From positions 1 to 25,747 of the IMG/VR virus record IMGVR_UViG_3300006735_000213: a stretch of DNA of 25,747 nucleotides; one strand, 5' to 3'. Below the pieces are notes generated by a model, which did not search any database, had not been told where the DNA came from, and saw nothing but the letters and a program-made list of their open reading frames with translations. This DNA is from a virus. Both the position numbers and the translations under genes were made by a program. Within the stretch, counting starts at the first letter, position 1. Every line of letters begins with the position of its first letter. Positions 12,046-21,316 of the stretch are shown here, piece after piece.

Positions 12046-12243
12046 TTACTTACTTTTTGATGTCTTGCTTGATGATTCTTGTGGCTCAGCTAGCTCTGAT
12101 TGAAGAGTAGCAATAATTGTTTGTGCTTGATTCAAGCCAGCTCTCAACATTTGAATTTCATAAGTCTTTTGACCTATTTCTTCAATAAGACCTGAGATAA
12201 CTGCTTGAACATCTATTTCTGTTTTCATGTCATTTGTACTCAT
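12046..12243 (-). CDS. Short coiled-coil protein (65 aa), first gene after a strong promoter
   Basis: Starts at ATG 12243. The nearest GGAG lies about 12 bases from the ATG, too far for an ideal Shine-Dalgarno, while a TATAAT ends exactly 6 nt before the ATG, so the message may be leaderless. The first part is MSTNDMKTEIDVQAVISGLI. Residues about 15-50 form one amphipathic helix with heptad spacing (EIQMLRAGLNQAQTIIATLQ), and the tail is a Ser/Lys-rich disordered end (ESSSKTSKSK). No membrane segment. It is the head gene of the small-protein and baseplate block after the sigma factor gene. Function unknown. Confidence 0.65.
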   Translation of the reverse strand: MSTNDMKTEIDVQAVISGLIEEIGQKTYEIQMLRAGLNQAQTIIATLQSELAEPQESSSKTSKSK

Positions 12244-12249
12244 AATATA

Positions 12250-12278
12250 ATTATACTCCTATGTGTAAATATAGTCAA
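12250..12278 (-). promoter_or_regulatory. Near-consensus sigma-70-type promoter, likely leaderless
   Basis: On the minus strand TTGACT (12273-12278, five of six to TTGACA) is followed by a 17-base spacer and TATAAT (12250-12255, six of six). The ATG of the 65-residue protein starts 6 nt after TATAAT, so a transcript starting about 7 nt after the -10 box would begin at the A of the start codon. The promoter sits in the 45-base gap after the sigma factor gene and would drive the baseplate block. The transcription start is inferred, not measured. Confidence 0.7.
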
Positions 12279-12288
12279 CTGATACCAT

Positions 12289-13215
12289 TTAGAAATCAGC
12301 ATGTTGCTCATTAAAAGCCCACGCCACTCCAGACGAAGGATGCCTCAAGCGTGCAATTGCTTTAGCTTCTAACTGACGTACTCTTTCTCGTGTAAGACCC
12401 ATCTTGTCACCTATTTCTTGTAGGGTTAACGGGGTTTCATAATCCGATAAACCGTGGTGCATGATGAGAACTTCATACTCTCTTTCAGGTAAAACGCTTA
12501 ATGCTTTCAAAATATCTGAAGCAAAACTAGAAGCAATACCTAAATCTTCAACCTCAGGTTGATTTTTATCAACTAAAGTATCTGAGTGCGATACAAGACT
12601 ATCCTCAGAAAGATTGTTGTCTAAAGACTCCAATCGAGTATTCTCCATATGCGACCAAATGTCATCAAGTTTTTCATCGTCCCATCCAAGATAGTCAGCT
12701 ATTTCATATCTACTGAAATCGCTGTTAGACGACTCTAAATCTTCTAGAACTGCAGAGAGCTTTCGGACATCTGCTTCAATATGCATAGGGATACGTATAG
12801 CTCTACCTAAGTTAGCTATCGCCCGCTGGCATGCTTGCCTACACCACCAAGTTGCATAGGTAGAAAACTTAAAGCCTCTCTCAGGGTCAAACTTGTCTAC
12901 AGCACGCATCAAACCAATAGTTGCCTCTTGTATCAAATCTTCGTACTCTATTCTTGATTGTGACCTAGAATATCTAGCTGCAGTGTCCATAGCCAACCGT
13001 AAGTTGTGCTCAACAAAAGTGTTTTTAGCATCTTTAGCTGCCTCAACTGCCGCATTCAAAGCTCTTCTTTCAGAGTAGTCTAGCTTTATTCCCTCTATGT
13101 GCGCTTCATTTAATTCTTTAGCTGCCTTTTGACCTGCTACGACAGTTCTTCCCAAAACAACTTCTTCTTCTCTTGTTAAGATTCTATGCTTTGAACTATT
13201 TACATAACCTGACAT
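12289..13215 (-). CDS. Phage-encoded sigma-70 family RNA polymerase sigma factor (308 aa)
   Basis: Directs host RNA polymerase to promoters. Starts at ATG 13215 with AAGGAG 8 nt upstream, sharing the A of the upstream TAA (TAATG). Layout: a region 1.2-like part about 9-40 (RILTREEEVVLGRTVVAGQK), region 2 about 61-134 with EYEDLIQEATIGLMRAVDKF-type residues and KFSTYATWWCRQACQRAIA (region 2.3/2.4 with the melting aromatics), the 2.4/3.0 junction RAIRIPMHIE, region 3 about 145-195, and region 4 about 228-292 with LPEREYEVLIMHHGL and the helix-turn-helix EIGDKMGLTRERVRQLEAKA. There is no region 1.1 or NCR, so it is a compact primary-like or group 2-like factor, longer than ECF or T4 gp55-type factors. 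Which promoters it reads is unknown; the near-consensus promoter directly downstream is an obvious candidate. Confidence 0.95.
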   Translation of the reverse strand: MSGYVNSSKHRILTREEEVVLGRTVVAGQKAAKELNEAHIEGIKLDYSERRALNAAVEAAKDAKNTFVEHNLRLAMDTAARYSRSQSRIEYEDLIQEATIGLMRAVDKFDPERGFKFSTYATWWCRQACQRAIANLGRAIRIPMHIEADVRKLSAVLEDLESSNSDFSRYEIADYLGWDDEKLDDIWSHMENTRLESLDNNLSEDSLVSHSDTLVDKNQPEVEDLGIASSFASDILKALSVLPEREYEVLIMHHGLSDYETPLTLQEIGDKMGLTRERVRQLEAKAIARLRHPSSGVAWAFNEQHADF

Positions 13216-13349
13216 TAACTATTCTCCTTAGATTGTTTTTTGTAATTAGATGGATGCCTAAGAATAGCATCATCACGTTCTTGTTTTTGCTGTTCTTTCT
13301 CTATTTCTTTCCATTTATACCATAGTGGCATAAAAACCTCATGCTTCAT
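13215..13349 (-). CDS. 44-residue basic protein co-translated with the sigma factor
   Basis: A 45-codon frame from ATG 13349 to TAA 13217-13215; the stop overlaps the sigma ATG as TAATG. A textbook AAGGAG (13357-13362) lies 7 nt before its ATG, better than for most genes here. The protein begins MKHEVFMPLWYKWKEIEKEQ, is rich in Lys/Glu/Gln with two Trp, and is probably one helix followed by an HPSNYKK tail. No known family is recognised. As first gene of the sigma operon it could be a leader peptide that couples sigma translation, or a small partner of sigma or RNA polymerase. Both are inference. Confidence 0.7.
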   Translation of the reverse strand: MKHEVFMPLWYKWKEIEKEQQKQERDDAILRHPSNYKKQSKENS

Positions 13350-13362
13350 ATATACACTCCTT

Positions 13363-13381
13363 GCACCACATTTATAGGTGC
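13363..13381 (-). promoter_or_regulatory. Stem-loop abutting the Shine-Dalgarno of the sigma operon
   Basis: On the minus strand GCACC and GGTGC form a 5-bp stem around a 9-base loop (TATAAATGT); the very next bases are the AAGGAG site (13357-13362). Such placement could position or modulate ribosome entry. The stem is short, so chance is possible. Confidence 0.35.
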
Positions 13382-13440
13382 TGTTGATTATTGCATATCA
13401 TTTCTACCAACAAAATCAAAAAACAACAACCTTTTTCGTA

Positions 13441-13476
13441 ACTTTTGTTAAAAAATAAACACTTTTGTCAAAAAGT
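13441..13476. repeat. Two tandem 16-bp near-palindromic repeats, 20-bp period
   Basis: Minus-strand copies are ACTTTTTGACAAAAGT (13461-13476), whose 6-bp arms ACTTTT/AAAAGT are perfectly inverted, and ATTTTTTAACAAAAGT (13441-13456), which differs at three or fewer positions outside its conserved AAAAGT arm. The starts are exactly 20 bp apart, about two helical turns. This suggests an operator pair or iteron-like protein-binding sites upstream of the sigma operon. Confidence 0.5.
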
Positions 13477-13500
13477 TGTAAGTTTTGGTAGTAAATCTCA

Positions 13501-15426
13501 TCAAAATTTGAACTCTTTTTCGCCAAAAAGATGTTCAACTAAACTATCATCTCCATATTGTTTTCTATCGTCATCTGAAATCTCAACAATCTCGTGTTCG
13601 CCCTCTGTATATAACGTTCCCCATGAGCGTCCGCCTAAGTCAGGCTCTGTAGAAATATGAACATCTTTGAGTATCATCTCCATAGTAGCCCCTGCTTCTT
13701 TGCACAAATCCTTAGCGTTTTCTTCAGGAAATGAAAATAGTATCTCATCATGAATTGGTAAAACTGCATAGTCCCACAAGCCTGCTTCATGTATCTTTAT
13801 CATCGCTCTACCTAAAACATCTCTAGCCGTAGACTGAATACAGTAATTTAAGGCTGCATATGGTCGCTCAGAGTCCACAGGCAACTTCCGCCCAGTATGC
13901 GTTATCACATAATTACGCAAGCCTTTTTTAATAGGATGTGCTAACTGATGAGAAAAACGTGTAACTCCTTGATACGTGGAGTCGAATAGATCGCATACAT
14001 TCTGCGCCTCTTCAATAGATATACCAGATTGCCTTGAAAGCGTTTTCGGCCCAGCCCCATAAACTTTACCAAAATTTACAGTTTTTGCAATTTTTCTACT
14101 TACCCCAGTATTATCCGCTGTGGTTTGGTGCAAATCTCCACCTTGTGCAAAAACATCTAACATAACTTTATCTTGTGAAAGACCTGCTAGAACTCTTAGC
14201 TCAACTCCCGAAAAGTCAATAGATGCCATTCTACACCCTTCTTCAGCTAAAAACATTCGACGTATAGCATCTCCACCAGATGGCAACTGCTGAAGTGGAG
14301 GATTACTGATCGACATTCTCCCTGTTCTTGCTTGCAAGCTGTTAAGTTTAGGATGCACTCTACCCTTGTCATCCATGCTTTGTAAAGATGCAATAACATA
14401 GGCATCTCTCCACTTAGCGTTGTTCTTAGCGTTTGTGACGGCCTCAGCGAGCTTTCTAGCGTCCCCTAAGGACTCATCATTCGCAATATTACTTAATATA
14501 GTCTTATCAACCTTTAACTGCCCTGACGCTGTTGTTTCTATTAGCTTTACGCCTAAATTCTGTAATGCTTGTGCAACATCTCTTGTGGCATTGTGATTAT
14601 TAACCCCAAAAGATTTAACTACGGCAATATTATCAGCCTCATATGCAGTCATTTCTTCTGCCAGACTAACAGAATAATCAACGTCAATCAAAACACCCCT
14701 GCGCTCCATGGACGCAGTGAGCTTCAACAGATCATGCTCATATTTAACAAGATGATCCATCGTTTGCCGCTTTATCTCTTTTCTAAGCTTAGGGAAAAGT
14801 CTTGCAGTTAAAATTACGTCTACTCCTGCATAATGAACTAAAGTAGGATGATCGGCAGGGATATTTTTCCAACCCTGTTGAATACTCCACTTTTGACGTT
14901 TGAATAAATCTTTTAACGCACCATCTGAATCTGGTGCAGATTTATCAACATGAAAAGCAGCTAAGTTTTTTAAACCGTGCCCTACACCACCTTCAGCCCT
15001 GCTCCTTGGGTCTGCTAAATGCGCTAAGATTCGGGTATCAAAAGTTCTATCAAGTATTTCAAGAGCGTCAACATGCCCGTGCCTGTCTAAACCAAGTGCA
15101 TCAAAAGTAGCGTTATGTGCTAAAAGGCGATAATCAGTCTTCTCCATAACGATATCTATCGATTTTTGAAACCACGGCTCACCCCATATAAAAACAAATG
15201 CTTTAGATTGATCGCCCCACTGAATACTCTTTATCTCCCATTCTAAGGAATAAGTATCAAGCCCTGTAGCTTCTATATCATAAGCTAAAGGTCGGCGTCG
15301 CTCTAGTAGCCACTCTGCAAAATCTGAAAAATCATCGTCTGATCTAACCAGTACAACATCTTCCTCAGATTCACCTGTGCCATATGTGTCATGGAGCCAA
15401 TCATCCATTAATGTTAATGAGGTCAT
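13501..15426 (-). CDS. polA: Family A (Pol I-type) DNA polymerase with 3'-5' exonuclease domain (641 aa)
   Basis: Replicative phage DNA polymerase. The exonuclease domain (about 25-215) has all three motifs: Asp50/Glu52 (YDIEATG), Asn105/Asp109 (LAHNATFDA) and Tyr199/Asp203 (HYAGVD). The polymerase domain (about 225-610) has LQARTGRMSISNPPLQQLPS, motif A Asp404 to Glu409 (ASIDFSGVELRVLAGLSQDK), motif B Arg444, Lys448, Phe452, Tyr456 (RKIAKTVNFGKVYG) and motif C His559-Asp560-Glu561 (LPIHDEILF). There is no 5'-nuclease domain, as usual in phages. Phe452 corresponds to E. coli Phe762. Motif A has Gly where E. coli has Gln708. The acidic tail (about 612-641) is an extension. Start is ATG at 15426, 3 nt after the exonuclease stop, with coupled translation. 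No helicase or primase is in the window. Confidence 0.95.
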   Translation of the reverse strand: MTSLTLMDDWLHDTYGTGESEEDVVLVRSDDDFSDFAEWLLERRRPLAYDIEATGLDTYSLEWEIKSIQWGDQSKAFVFIWGEPWFQKSIDIVMEKTDYRLLAHNATFDALGLDRHGHVDALEILDRTFDTRILAHLADPRSRAEGGVGHGLKNLAAFHVDKSAPDSDGALKDLFKRQKWSIQQGWKNIPADHPTLVHYAGVDVILTARLFPKLRKEIKRQTMDHLVKYEHDLLKLTASMERRGVLIDVDYSVSLAEEMTAYEADNIAVVKSFGVNNHNATRDVAQALQNLGVKLIETTASGQLKVDKTILSNIANDESLGDARKLAEAVTNAKNNAKWRDAYVIASLQSMDDKGRVHPKLNSLQARTGRMSISNPPLQQLPSGGDAIRRMFLAEEGCRMASIDFSGVELRVLAGLSQDKVMLDVFAQGGDLHQTTADNTGVSRKIAKTVNFGKVYGAGPKTLSRQSGISIEEAQNVCDLFDSTYQGVTRFSHQLAHPIKKGLRNYVITHTGRKLPVDSERPYAALNYCIQSTARDVLGRAMIKIHEAGLWDYAVLPIHDEILFSFPEENAKDLCKEAGATMEMILKDVHISTEPDLGGRSWGTLYTEGEHEIVEISDDDRKQYGDDSLVEHLFGEKEFKF

Positions 15427-15429
15427 ACT

Positions 15430-16194
15430 TTACGGAACTATTGTAGGCTTTTCTATTTTGTTAGCTAAACGGCTTCTACTCCAAGATCTACAATCATTAC
15501 ATTGCCATTGCTGATAAGACGCAACCTTAGTGTATTTATACCCTCTTCTTTGAAGATTGATAGATCCACAAGTTGGACATGAATGATCGGAGACAGCATC
15601 ATAAACATTTAGATTTGGGTGATTCGTCATCCAAGGCCTTAACTGTAAATAAACATCTCTTAACAAAACAACATCTTGCTTTGCATACTTTATCATTGTC
15701 TTCCATGCCTTAATGTCCCCACGCATACAACCAGCCCAAGTTTCAAAACCGCCTGTAGACTCTTTTTGCCCAACACCAAGATAAGTGCCTAGCTCGTTTA
15801 ACTTATTACTGTTAAACATAAAGTACCTACGAGCTACCTTTAAAGTATCAACAGATTTAACTGGTGAAGCTGGTCCAAGACCATGCGCTATAAAACGTGC
15901 GTTTGCTTTTCTCATATCAAACCTGTCACCATTATGTGCTATAACAATGTCAGCTTCACTTATTAAATCCCAAAGCTTTTTTACAACGTGGTAGTCATTC
16001 TCAGGATCTTTTGCATAAGCATCTTTATAGTCTATCAAGGAGCATACGCTTGTTTTCTTCTGATGCTCCCATCGATAACCAAAACATAAAATGTACCACT
16101 GTCTTTCATGATCAATAACATTTTGTTCGTAGTGCCCCCAAACGTAACTTAGGTTAGGTGCTGTTTCTATATCGAAGTATAAGATTTTAGCCAT
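15430..16194 (-). CDS. DnaQ-like 3'-5' exonuclease with C-terminal zinc ribbon (254 aa)
   Basis: A DEDD-superfamily exonuclease. The start at ATG 16194 gives MAKILYFDIETAPNLSY, the canonical first strand with Asp8/Glu10; an in-frame ATG at 16251 would add 19 unrelated residues inside the upstream gene. Motif II is Asn88 to Asp93 (ADIVIAHNGDRFD) and motif III is Tyr170 to Asp174 (YAKQD). The C-terminus (about 204-238) has a zinc ribbon: Cys206, Cys209, Cys232, Cys235 (SCPTCG and CNDC). It lies 3 nt before the polymerase gene and 4 nt after the winged-helix gene, so it belongs with replication. Because the polymerase already has an intact exonuclease, this enzyme may do repair, recombination or RNA processing. 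No Shine-Dalgarno; TACATT ends 6 nt before the ATG. Confidence 0.85.
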   Translation of the reverse strand: MAKILYFDIETAPNLSYVWGHYEQNVIDHERQWYILCFGYRWEHQKKTSVCSLIDYKDAYAKDPENDYHVVKKLWDLISEADIVIAHNGDRFDMRKANARFIAHGLGPASPVKSVDTLKVARRYFMFNSNKLNELGTYLGVGQKESTGGFETWAGCMRGDIKAWKTMIKYAKQDVVLLRDVYLQLRPWMTNHPNLNVYDAVSDHSCPTCGSINLQRRGYKYTKVASYQQWQCNDCRSWSRSRLANKIEKPTIVP

Positions 16195-16198
16195 ATTG

Positions 16199-16459
16199 TT
16201 AATGTACCACACTTTCTGTAAATATACAAGATTGTAATCGTTTGATGTCATCTATTTTATACAAACCTTCATCAGGGTAAAAGAAGGTTCTTCTTCTATG
16301 TCTTTCTTTGCGAAGTATTCCTTCTTTAACTAAACGGTCTAGTGCCCTCCAAACATGTTGATATCGCATTCCAATTAGTTCTGCAATTTCTTTTTGTGTC
16401 ATATCTGGATTCTCTAAAACCGCTAGTAAAACTCTAGTGTTAGCTGTCAAAATTCTCAT
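16199..16459 (-). CDS. Winged helix-turn-helix DNA-binding protein (86 aa)
   Basis: A probable small transcription regulator. The fold is a winged helix of MarR-like or IclR-like type: helix 1 at TRVLLAVLENP (about 8-18), helix 2 TQKEIAELIG (about 21-30), recognition helix RYQHVWRALDRLVKEG (about 32-47), and a basic wing ILRKERHRRRTFFYPD (about 48-63). There is no ligand domain, and the last 20 residues are unrecognised. The ATG at 16459 overlaps the upstream gene by 20 bases; a later ATG (16402) would delete helix 1. It sits directly before the exonuclease and polymerase genes and so may control them. Targets cannot be seen from the sequence; the tandem repeats at 13441-13476 are one candidate site. 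Confidence 0.8.
   Translation of the reverse strand: MRILTANTRVLLAVLENPDMTQKEIAELIGMRYQHVWRALDRLVKEGILRKERHRRRTFFYPDEGLYKIDDIKRLQSCIFTESVVH
16201..16229 (-). promoter_or_regulatory. Possible leaderless promoter for the DnaQ-like exonuclease
   Basis: TACATT (16201-16206) ends 6 nt before the ATG at 16194. Seventeen bases further upstream is TTGTAT (16224-16229). This matches a TANNNT box and a TTG-type -35, in the spacing of leaderless promoters. It lies within the end of the winged-helix gene, and the boxes are weak individually. Confidence 0.4.
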
Positions 16460-16958
16460 CTGTGCTCATACTTTCTAGTACAGACAGGGATAGATCCATT
16501 TCATTAATTTTCGCTTCAAGCGATTGTGCACGATCCAAAGCTACGCTTAACTTAGCTGTTGATTCTGCTAGCAAACTAGTTAAATACGATATCTTCTCAT
16601 CTGTAGTATGCATCTGATCAATATTTTGAAAAACGTCAGTGTCAATGACATTAAACTCTTCAGCTTTAGAACGAACAAAAATTCGATAATCTTTAAGAAC
16701 AGTCAAAAACTTTTCACTAGTGCCAGATAAATGCAATAGTAAACTTTCTATGTTCACTCCAAGACTAATAGTAGCACCATCTCTATTTAAGTAGCCATCT
16801 CTGACTAGACTGTCTACTAGGTCGTGAAGCCATTTCTCTTCTGACCTAAATACACCATCTCTGGCGATAACCAAAGAAAGGACTCGGTGTAACGAGTCCA
16901 TTCCATCATCTTGCATTAAATTGCTAACAGCTTCGGATACAGTTTTTTCATTTGCCAT
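16440..16958 (-). CDS. Hypothetical helical protein (172 aa)
   Basis: Starts at ATG 16958 in the first position after a promoter-like gap. A first part (MANEKTVSEAVSNLMQDDGM to about 70) is helical, with LHDLVDSLVRDGYLNRDGAT recalling a small winged-helix or helical bundle but without a convincing family match. The last 60 residues (about 112-172) are a likely coiled coil (LLAESTAKLSVALDRAQSLE). It is acidic, with no membrane segment. It overlaps the winged-helix gene by 20 bases, so translation is probably coupled. It may be a partner of that regulator or a replication accessory; this is context inference. Confidence 0.6.
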   Translation of the reverse strand: MANEKTVSEAVSNLMQDDGMDSLHRVLSLVIARDGVFRSEEKWLHDLVDSLVRDGYLNRDGATISLGVNIESLLLHLSGTSEKFLTVLKDYRIFVRSKAEEFNVIDTDVFQNIDQMHTTDEKISYLTSLLAESTAKLSVALDRAQSLEAKINEMDLSLSVLESMSTDENFDS

Positions 16959-16964
16959 GACTTT

Positions 16965-16993
16965 ATCCTATAATTATAAAGTTGCCTTGTCAA
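16965..16993 (-). promoter_or_regulatory. Probable promoter before the 172-aa gene, leaderless type
   Basis: The 37-base gap after the nuclease gene holds TTGACA (16988-16993, perfect), a 17-base spacer and TAGGAT (16965-16970, four of six), ending 6 nt before the ATG at 16958. A TATAAT at 16973-16978 overlaps the spacer but is only 9 bases from TTGACA, so it would need another -35. Either way a start is expected within a few bases of the ATG. Confidence 0.55.
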
Positions 16994-16995
16994 GC

Positions 16996-17355
16996 CTATC
17001 TTTTGCCACCGAAGTATTCGACACCATTTCCAGATGTAATGATGTCATCATTGAGGCATTTACTTCTCTCTTCATCTAAGTAAATCTTACCTAAGATTCT
17101 TCCGTATTTGCCTCCAGCATCTTTAAATGTCTGAATATAAAAATGATCGCTCTTGCTCAACCAATTTTGAACAAAACCTTTAGCCTTAAAACCTAAAGCC
17201 TTTTCTTCTAAATCTTTAGTTCGTGTTTCTGGAGTATTCACACCATACAGACGGATGCGTGCTTTATGCAAAACATCAAAACCTAAATCGATTACAACAT
17301 CAACTGTATCCCCATCAATAATTCGGTCTAAAGAAACTTTATAAAAATATCTCAT
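16996..17355 (-). CDS. Staphylococcal nuclease-like (thermonuclease) protein (119 aa)
   Basis: Hydrolyses DNA and RNA with calcium in the known family. Motifs are RIIDGDTVDVVIDLG (about 11-25), IRLYGVNTPETR (34-45) and KYGRILGKIY (83-92). The catalytic residues are preserved as Arg35, Glu43 and Arg86. The family calcium-binding Asp of the VDTPE motif is Asn40 here (VNTPE), a substitution also seen in other homologues. There is no signal peptide, so it acts in the cytoplasm or virion, unlike the secreted enzyme. It begins at ATG 17355; GAGAGGA lies about 10 nt upstream, and TATAAT-like sequence at the lipoprotein stop may be a promoter. Host DNA breakdown is the likely role. Confidence 0.9.
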   Translation of the reverse strand: MRYFYKVSLDRIIDGDTVDVVIDLGFDVLHKARIRLYGVNTPETRTKDLEEKALGFKAKGFVQNWLSKSDHFYIQTFKDAGGKYGRILGKIYLDEERSKCLNDDIITSGNGVEYFGGKR

Positions 17356-17391
17356 AATGCAAAAGTCCTCTCAAGTTAATTCTTTATTATA

Positions 17392-18159
17392 TTATAGTCC
17401 CCAAGGGCTCCAGCCCCCTTCAGTGACCCATATATGGTAACCTGATCTCAAATTTACATAAGGATCGTATAAATCATCGCAAGTAGTAACACCACTGTCT
17501 CTAACCTGCAGATATCCATCAGGCCAGTAAACGTTTGAAGTACACCAGTATCGGTTTATCTGAATCAACCCCAAAGAGCCACCTATAGGGTCAGCCCCAT
17601 TGAAAGCGTTAGGATCACATCTTGACTCTCTATAGATGACATATGATAGCTTACGCAATTGATCTTCAGGCCATCCAGCGCTTCGTGCAACATCCATCCA
17701 CTCAGGACACTCCCAACCATCTTTAATAATACTACTACTTGGAGGAGTAGGGTAGCTCAAATTAATCAAGTCTAAGTCTACGGCGTGGGTTCTATGCGCT
17801 CCCCAAGTGCCTAAGCCATAAACTCCATCAGGGGTTACGCCAATGTATTGTTGCAAGAGTTTAACTCTAGGGCTATTTTCCATCCAGAAATAATCTAACT
17901 GCATTATTTCTTTCTCTACTGCAAGCCAATCTACTTCAGGAAATATGTACAAAGCATAGCTTGTAGTTTCGAATATCCTTGTTTCCTCTATAGGAGTAGG
18001 GGTAGGCGCAGGCGTTGGTTCTTCAATAACTTCTTCAACAACCACCTCTGAAGTGGTAGGAACACCGTGAGAAGCTACAAGGCTAGGTTCATCATCAGCA
18101 CAGCTTGATATTATAAAAAGTAAAATTATGGATGCTATTAATTTAGTAGGTAAATTCAT
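17392..18159 (-). CDS. Lipoprotein with peptidoglycan-binding and lytic-transglycosylase-like domains (255 aa)
   Basis: An envelope-targeted probable muramidase. Residues 1-20 are a lipoprotein signal: basic start, LIASIILLFIIS core and lipobox ISSC with Cys20. Residues about 30-58 are a Pro/Thr/Glu-rich spacer (PTPAPTPTPIEE). About 96-126 resembles a PG_binding_1 motif (RVKLLQQYIGVTPDGVYGLG). The C-terminal part (about 150-255) is SLT/lysozyme-like, with candidate catalytic Glu178 in YRESRCDPNAF, and GGSLGLIQINRYWC. Four Cys (151, 181, 206, 227) could make disulfides. It may act in lysis, or at the envelope in superinfection exclusion; the lipid anchor is unusual for an endolysin. It lacks a Shine-Dalgarno; TATATT lies 6 nt before ATG. 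Confidence 0.8.
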   Translation of the reverse strand: MNLPTKLIASIILLFIISSCADDEPSLVASHGVPTTSEVVVEEVIEEPTPAPTPTPIEETRIFETTSYALYIFPEVDWLAVEKEIMQLDYFWMENSPRVKLLQQYIGVTPDGVYGLGTWGAHRTHAVDLDLINLSYPTPPSSSIIKDGWECPEWMDVARSAGWPEDQLRKLSYVIYRESRCDPNAFNGADPIGGSLGLIQINRYWCTSNVYWPDGYLQVRDSGVTTCDDLYDPYVNLRSGYHIWVTEGGWSPWGL

Positions 18160-18165
18160 GCTTTT

Positions 18166-18194
18166 AATATATCAGTAGTTTGGTTAAAAACCTA
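18166..18194 (-). promoter_or_regulatory. Possible leaderless promoter for the lipoprotein gene
   Basis: TATATT (18166-18171, five of six) ends 6 nt before the ATG at 18159. The hexamer 17 bases upstream (TAGGTT, 18189-18194) is a poor -35. The gap to the S74 fibre stop is only 38 bases and also contains a short GGTT/AACC stem. Confidence 0.4.
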
Positions 18195-20057: not shown

Positions 20058-21316
20058 AGCGACTCTATCTTTTCCCATGTAAATAAATCCACAATGCCTG
20101 TAACTGGAAGACCTTGTGTTTCTTGAAATACTTTAACCGCTTCCTCAGTGCGCTTATCAAAAACACCTGTAACTTGTAAATTAACATTTCTAGACTCGGT
20201 ATGGTAAATAACCTCTACATCAGGAAGAAACGGGCCTGAACTTCCTCCTGTAAGTTCCACTCTTTGATTCCCTATAACAACTCCTTTAGCCACTTTTTCG
20301 GTAACTTGGTAAGTGTAGCCAGAAGAAACTGCCTGCTGTATCCTCTTAACACAGTCGCCTTCATCTCCAAGCTGAAATACCTGTAAGGAGCAAGCAATAT
20401 CAGGGCTATCTTCAGGGGTCCTACCAGACACTGCAACCGTGCCTGAGCCAGTAGCATCATACGAAACTTTATCTACAAAAAACTTTCTATCGTAAAGATT
20501 AAAAAAGTCTCTAGCTGACTGTGGAACTGCAGAATCATATAAACCTGAAGATTCATCTTTCAGCAAAAACATTAAATCTACAATGTCTTCCCTACCATCA
20601 TAAAACCTTACGCTCATACCCGGAACAATTGTGACACTCGACTCATTCTTAATAAGGTTAGTTGTAAAAGTAGCACCTGACTTCTTACTATCAGCACTTC
20701 TCCTAAGATTCACTCTATTAGCATAAAACGAGTCAGTTTTTCCGGATGGAATTGAAATACCAAAGTTAGGTTGATTCTCGATCAAATACTTTTCTGAAGC
20801 AAAATAAAGAACGCCTCTACACTCAAAAAACCGCCACTTCAAATCCCTAGCCAAACGAACCATTAAATCATAGCTGCTCTCAACCTCGTCATCTTTTTCA
20901 TTACGAGTAATAACACCATCAACAGGTGCCTCCTCTTTAAAAATTTTTAAATCAAACCTAGACGCCATTATCTCAGCTACGTCAGAAGGAGAAATATACC
21001 CCAAATTAATGTTACCCCTGTCTCTACGCATTCTTTGCATAGCCTTAGTCCTCGCAGTAACCTGAACAGAATCTCTACTCTGATGCTCTATACTGACCGC
21101 AGCTATTTCCCACACCATGTCATCCCACTCAACTGTTCTACCAATCATAAAATAGTTAAGATGATGCATTTTAAAGCTAGGATCATGGACCTTAAAATTA
21201 AGCTCGCTAATAGCACCTGCAGATAAATCTACAGAAAGAGAAGTGATTGAGTTTTGTATTTCAACTTGTCTTCTACCAAGTTCACCTATTTTTAACTTAC
21301 CTACATAGTCTGGCAT
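20054..21316 (-). CDS. D-like baseplate hub protein with C-terminal peptidoglycan-binding domain (420 aa)
   Basis: Probably the tail hub (late control D / XkdQ-like). It starts at ATG 21316 behind AAAGGTAGG. Residues about 1-300 show the hub pattern: an early beta domain (ITSLSVDLSAGAISELNFKV), a gpD-like middle (SPSDVAEIMASRFDLKIFKE, then SSYDLMVRLARDLKWRFFEC) and a second beta domain ending GTVAVSGRTPED. Residues about 316-417 carry a PG_binding_1 fold in two pieces, LGDEGDCVKRIQQAV and VTGVFDKRTEEAVKVFQETQ, with about 50 inserted residues between them. It overlaps the S74 fibre by 4 nt. A hub that binds peptidoglycan fits local wall penetration at injection. The PG-binding part is well supported; the hub family is moderately so. 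Confidence 0.8.
   Translation of the reverse strand: MPDYVGKLKIGELGRRQVEIQNSITSLSVDLSAGAISELNFKVHDPSFKMHHLNYFMIGRTVEWDDMVWEIAAVSIEHQSRDSVQVTARTKAMQRMRRDRGNINLGYISPSDVAEIMASRFDLKIFKEEAPVDGVITRNEKDDEVESSYDLMVRLARDLKWRFFECRGVLYFASEKYLIENQPNFGISIPSGKTDSFYANRVNLRRSADSKKSGATFTTNLIKNESSVTIVPGMSVRFYDGREDIVDLMFLLKDESSGLYDSAVPQSARDFFNLYDRKFFVDKVSYDATGSGTVAVSGRTPEDSPDIACSLQVFQLGDEGDCVKRIQQAVSSGYTYQVTEKVAKGVVIGNQRVELTGGSSGPFLPDVEVIYHTESRNVNLQVTGVFDKRTEEAVKVFQETQGLPVTGIVDLFTWEKIESL

Follow-up and report, generated by a model that had tools for sequence, protein, structure and literature searches.

Conserved promoter spacing points to leaderless genes in a group of actinobacterial phages

A group of actinobacterial phages very probably transcribes part of its genes without a 5′ leader. 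This reading is based on sequence, spacing, conservation, a pyrimidine at position -1 and a shortage of Shine-Dalgarno (SD) motifs, from which we infer both the transcript starts and the mechanism of translation. We propose that the hexamers upstream of the ATGs at 12243, 16194, 16958 and possibly 18159 of the window (the whole 25,747-nt stretch analysed, from IMG/VR record IMGVR_UViG_3300006735_000213) would be -10 boxes of sigma-70-type promoters, at which RNA polymerase would begin on the A of the ATG, thereby producing mRNAs without a 5′ leader. The ribosome of the actinobacterial host would then initiate directly on the 5′-terminal AUG, a mode it also uses for many host genes. In the phage group, about 11% of the genes are predicted to be translated in this way, with SD starts common among the rest.

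Promoter sites in the window

The relevant features all lie on the minus strand:

12046..12243, minus: 65-aa gene, predicted leaderless, downstream of TTGACT-N17-TATAAT
12250..12278, minus: putative promoter TTGACT-N17-TATAAT; -10 (TATAAT, 12250-12255) ending 6 nt before the ATG at 12243
12289..13215, minus: SigA-like phage sigma factor of 308 aa, SD-led, conserved in the same phage group
15430..16194, minus: DNA polymerase exonuclease subunit (PHROG match, phrog_403), predicted leaderless
16201..16229, minus: putative promoter TTGTAT-N17-TACATT; -10 (TACATT, 16201-16206) ending 6 nt before the ATG at 16194
16440..16958, minus: 172-aa gene with a conserved promoter, predicted leaderless in all relatives
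16965..16993, minus: putative promoter TTGACA-N17-TAGGAT; -10 (TAGGAT, 16965-16970) ending 6 nt before the ATG at 16958, exactly 6 nt in 16/16 records
17392..18159, minus: putative lipoprotein with a lysozyme-like domain (SLT_3, domain match)
18166..18171, minus: -10-like TATATT, 6 nt before the ATG at 18159, without a -35 box; the weakest site

The four hexamers reported by the initial annotation are all present exactly 6 nt upstream of an ATG, as are the TTG-type -35 boxes 17 nt further upstream at three of them (TTGACT, TTGTAT and TTGACA). Site 18159, the weakest of the four, has TAGGTT at 17-nt spacing where a -35 would stand. The promoter before 16194 sits within the 3′ end of the upstream HTH gene, and a longer in-frame ORF for the exonuclease opens at 16251; its orthologues begin at the 16194 methionine. 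The claim that these genes have no well-spaced strong SD holds at 12243, where AGGAG lies 12 nt from the ATG and is too far for a usual SD, and needs qualifying at 16958, which has AGGA 7 nt from the ATG. This AGGA is located inside the gene's own -10, and we rejected it as an SD because it is not conserved in relatives, whereas the -10 is. All four spacings are kept in the nearest relative (L002) despite changed flanking bases.

An AT-rich genome could supply TANNNT 6 nt before some ATGs by chance, and the one-box signal is modest in the window alone: 4/26 gene starts have TANNNT at distance 6 compared with 13/592 other minus-strand ATGs (binomial P = 0.0024 before correction for the choice of distance). 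However, TTGNNN-N17-TANNNT occurs 13 times on the minus (coding) strand of the window and three of these matches end 6 nt before a gene ATG, against 0.013 expected (P about 4e-7). Together with the unbiased recovery of a -35 box and the conservation across phages described below, this makes coincidence a negligible explanation; taken together, 12243, 16194 and 16958 refute it, and 18159 alone stands outside that refutation.

Statistics across related phages

Using the exonuclease (15430-16194) as query retrieved 80 viral contigs, forming 38 groups with the window included. In one set of these groups, TTGAC-N17/18-TANNNT-N6-ATG precedes every orthologue of the 172-aa gene. Statistics were computed on the window and 15 IMG/VR relatives (16 records, 977 kb), with gene starts assigned by a simple script. 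Here 117 candidate starts have the end of a two-box promoter 6 nt upstream, compared with none at 5 nt, 20 at 7 nt, five at 8 nt and a mean of 6.8 over other distances. The initial annotation had named equal frequency at random ATG codons as an argument against leaderless starts; the control gave 0 of 3956 internal ATGs at this distance. Considering the -10 alone, a -10-like signal is enriched about 12 bp upstream of starts, with TANNNT at distance 6 in 184/2119 candidate starts where 50.7 would be expected (P about 3e-47). The surplus of about 133 corresponds to about 11% of the roughly 1,150-1,230 called genes.

When sites were chosen by TANNNT-N6-ATG only, TTGAC emerged unasked at -35 to -31, accompanied by G at -14 and -13, A at -6 (76%) and C or T at -1 (81%). 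Transcription usually starts on a purine that follows a pyrimidine, and here that start would fall on the A of the ATG. Among these starts, 6-7% have an SD motif of at least 5 nt compared with 34% of the others, the latter figure being a lower bound since that class includes some miscalled starts. GTG serves as start codon in 5% of them versus 22% of others, codons 2-6 are richer in A (0.42 versus 0.33) and the first 45 nt are less structured. Leaderless and leadered promoters of the same genomes are alike in the -35 and in a G-rich extended -10, and differ mainly in the A after the -10 (82% versus 44%); no separate motif for the two kinds was found in the 16-record group.

The 172-aa gene is preceded by TTGAC-N17/18-TANNNTA-N5-ATG in 16/16 records, with proteins 30-86% identical to that of the window. 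In pairwise comparisons of its promoter across these records, TTGAC, the T, A and T of the -10, and position -6 are invariant (identity 1.00), and identity falls to 0.30 for the spacer, to 0.33 between -5 and -1, and to 0.38 further upstream. In record G046, a more divergent orthologue likewise lies 6 nt from its -10. Searching with the single protein recovered two records and with an alignment 21. The protein has no Pfam, PHROG or NCBIfam match; its structural model (mean pLDDT 78) has a mixed helix-strand N-terminal domain and a long C-terminal helix, and a fold search gave no significant match.

Distribution among gene families

Predicted leaderless starts are fixed in some families and variable in others. 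They occur in 16/16 records for the 172-aa family and 9/9 for a 127-aa family (helicase-associated domain, weak HTH match), whereas 7/11 orthologues of the 65-aa gene at 12243 have the leaderless geometry, the family carrying either the 6-nt -10 or an SD-like start. The promoter lies 6-8 nt before the ATG in 10/16 exonuclease records, the DNA polymerase family is leaderless in 6/16, and the promoter of the lysozyme family (site 18159) is strong in 3/15 relatives. Further candidate families comprise RecA, thioredoxin, AhpC, a ParB-like protein and 2OG-Fe(II) oxygenases.

Some exonuclease and DNA polymerase orthologues keep the promoter with 7-16 nt to the ATG, corresponding to a leader of about 1-9 nt, and for this reason strict leaderlessness is not kept for every gene. 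It is therefore conceivable that the -10 boxes are real and the 6-nt spacing incidental, the genes having very short leaders (1-9 nt) and depending for translation either on 70S ribosomes that bind close to the 5′ end or on coupling to the gene before them. The exonuclease orthologues at 7-8 nt, the polymerase orthologues whose -10 and ATG are about 15 nt apart, and the location of both starts in dense operons are compatible with this explanation. We nevertheless consider it improbable given how sharply the counts peak at 6 nt (117, with 0 at 5 and 20 at 7), the unchanging distance in the 172-aa and 127-aa families and the -1 pyrimidine. That part of the genes is initiated leaderlessly, as first suggested from the window, is thus strongly supported by comparative sequence.

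The promoter of the DNA polymerase gene is embedded in the final part of the exonuclease gene. In six records (G008 64867, G010 33001, G011 36572, G012 24723, G013 47520 and G014 11334) a similar promoter is found about 15 nt ahead of the ATG rather than 6, giving a predicted leader of about 9 nt, so this family shifts between leaderless and short-leader starts. In a family of 117-121 aa (G005 111198, G010 54726, G011 14857, G012 2916), a G+C-rich, terminator-like inverted repeat overlaps the leaderless -35 region; in G010-G012 it reads cggggtctggtc...ccggaccccg. Head-to-head leaderless promoters are predicted between recA and a gene of 118-121 aa, with start codons about 58 nt apart (G046 12556-12614 (L242); G005 20478-20535).

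Among the families of the window, leaderless starts account for 34/117 non-structural and 10/258 structural members, a division that is our own and rests on PHROG hits and position; omitting the 172-aa family leaves 18/101 versus 10/258 (P = 3e-5). The proposal that two translation modes separate regulated classes of genes is only partly borne out, by this enrichment. However, some tail families also have leaderless starts, and leadered promoters in the same genomes have similar -35 and -10 boxes, which gives no evidence of a separate promoter class.

Host range and other phages

Leaderless genes are common in Actinobacteria. An actinobacterial host, which the initial annotation had considered, is supported for the window phage by gene content and protein matches. 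WhiB, an actinobacterial regulator, is encoded in 7/20 records of the group, the window fragment not being among them. The baseplate J protein matched 47 phage records, all of them actinophages (of Arthrobacter, Gordonia and Brevibacterium), and the best matches of the DNA polymerase are also actinophages. For the leaderless RecA of one relative, the top-scoring entries, fusion constructs aside, are ones we take to be mycobacterial RecA. A prophage-based host scan of genome contigs gave no close match, the best (55%) being to a contig labelled Planctomycetota.

The generalisation that all actinophages share the pattern is not supported, since several have no peak at distance 6: the peak is absent from Caron (Microbacterium), EagleEye (Mycobacterium) and Cantare (Brevibacterium; 50 kb covered). 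Sycamore (Streptomyces) and Prairie (Arthrobacter) have a handful of leaderless candidates, two of those in Prairie being located at annotated start codons (MW601223.1 5208 and 16213 (L260)). EagleEye has a single candidate, a Lsr2-like gene with a GTG at its annotated start codon (NC_023564.1 25247 (L174)). A 68-kb phage, G057 (L248-L251), encodes a distant sigma factor (33%) and no WhiB; it has alike promoters 6 nt before the ATGs at 37598, 40863 and 41183, with TTGACA and then AAAGCGTGTGCTATATT in two of the three, and is possibly a second leaderless lineage. In the first 160 kb of a 436-kb phage record (L203 / G051), TANNNT stands at 6 nt for 4% of starts compared with 0.9% at other distances.

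A phage-encoded sigma factor

Phage-encoded sigma factors of the T4 gp55 type switch gene classes. The sigma factor of the window (12289-13215) spans regions 1.2-4, and its best solved relatives are SigA chains, which we take to be mycobacterial; it best matches SigA/RpoD/RpoS-type models, all below model cut-offs. It shares with the T4 gp55 type the ability, in principle, to steer the host polymerase, and differs in being SigA-like and in that no private promoter motif was found for it. The -35-reading motif TRERxRQ is kept, and a Q occupies, in all aligned phage copies, the position presumably equivalent to T440 of E. coli sigma-70, near the -12 base.

This sigma factor could be the main driver of the pattern, redirecting the host polymerase to TTGAC-N17-TANNNTA, with the leaderless genes as its regulon. 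Such an extension of leaderless transcription is worth considering, if doubtful. In its favour, the factor is present at 70% identity or more in 18/20 group records (window included), the two lacking it being a record of 16.7 kb and one of 34 kb near G018, which has it. It was found in none of 24 exonuclease-bearing phages outside the group, and these have no peak at distance 6 (5 at 6 nt against a background of 2.2); nor do the six WhiB-positive phages among them, all six records having been analysed. The kept TRERxRQ motif also fits. Against it, the sigma-positive phages look like one lineage, the leadered promoters of the same genomes have a similar motif, and host SigA is expected to read the same boxes. 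Since the sigma-negative WhiB phages have no peak, the leaderless habit is not simply an actinophage property and goes with the sigma-bearing lineage; because this is one lineage only, shared ancestry confounds the association, which may reflect a single evolutionary event and need not be causal.

Comparison with known systems

To our knowledge, leaderless phage genes are known only as isolated cases, such as lambda cI and a small number of promoters predicted in mycobacteriophages. In many bacteria, leaderless genes are marked by TANNNT about 12 bp upstream of the start codon, with an average of about 19% of genes in Actinobacteria (Zheng et al. 2011, PMC3160421). The phages studied here have the same TANNNT, spacing and presumed mechanism, and differ from the bacterial genes (PMC3160421) in having a clear TTGAC -35 box and an A after the -10. 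In cluster O mycobacteriophages such as Corndog, three promoters are predicted to yield leaderless mRNAs (PMC4351075), and these are likewise SigA-like actinophage promoters whose +1 coincides with the start codon's first base. Unlike those three, the present set amounts to about 11% of genes, spans many divergent phages and keeps its geometry among them, and is a prediction as well.

Ca. Nanopelagicales and Ca. Actinomarinales phages are, like these, aquatic actinophages with WhiB; those of Nanopelagicales also carry a sigma-70 factor (PMC10202952, PMC7771536). The latter factor is assigned there to TIGR02943, whereas the sigma of the window group is nearest SigA/RpoD/RpoS-type models, below cut-offs. 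The available passages of PMC10202952 and PMC7771536 make no mention of leaderless starts, and no paper on clade-wide leaderless genes in phages was found in the open-licence literature. The mechanism is ordinary; its scale and conservation are unusual for phages, and the clade-wide scale appears to be new.

Base-exact spacing is kept upstream of proteins that share as little as 30-50% identity, which points to strong selection for the leaderless start mode and offers a rule by which start codons of uncultured actinophages can be corrected from sequence. Quite speculatively, we suggest that this phage lineage may have built a leaderless programme under its own SigA-like sigma factor, in which promoters joined directly to start codons would place replication, recombination and redox genes outside SD initiation, perhaps at times when the host has little capacity for leadered starts. 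The pattern also allows a test of whether leaderless translation and a phage sigma factor act as one programme.
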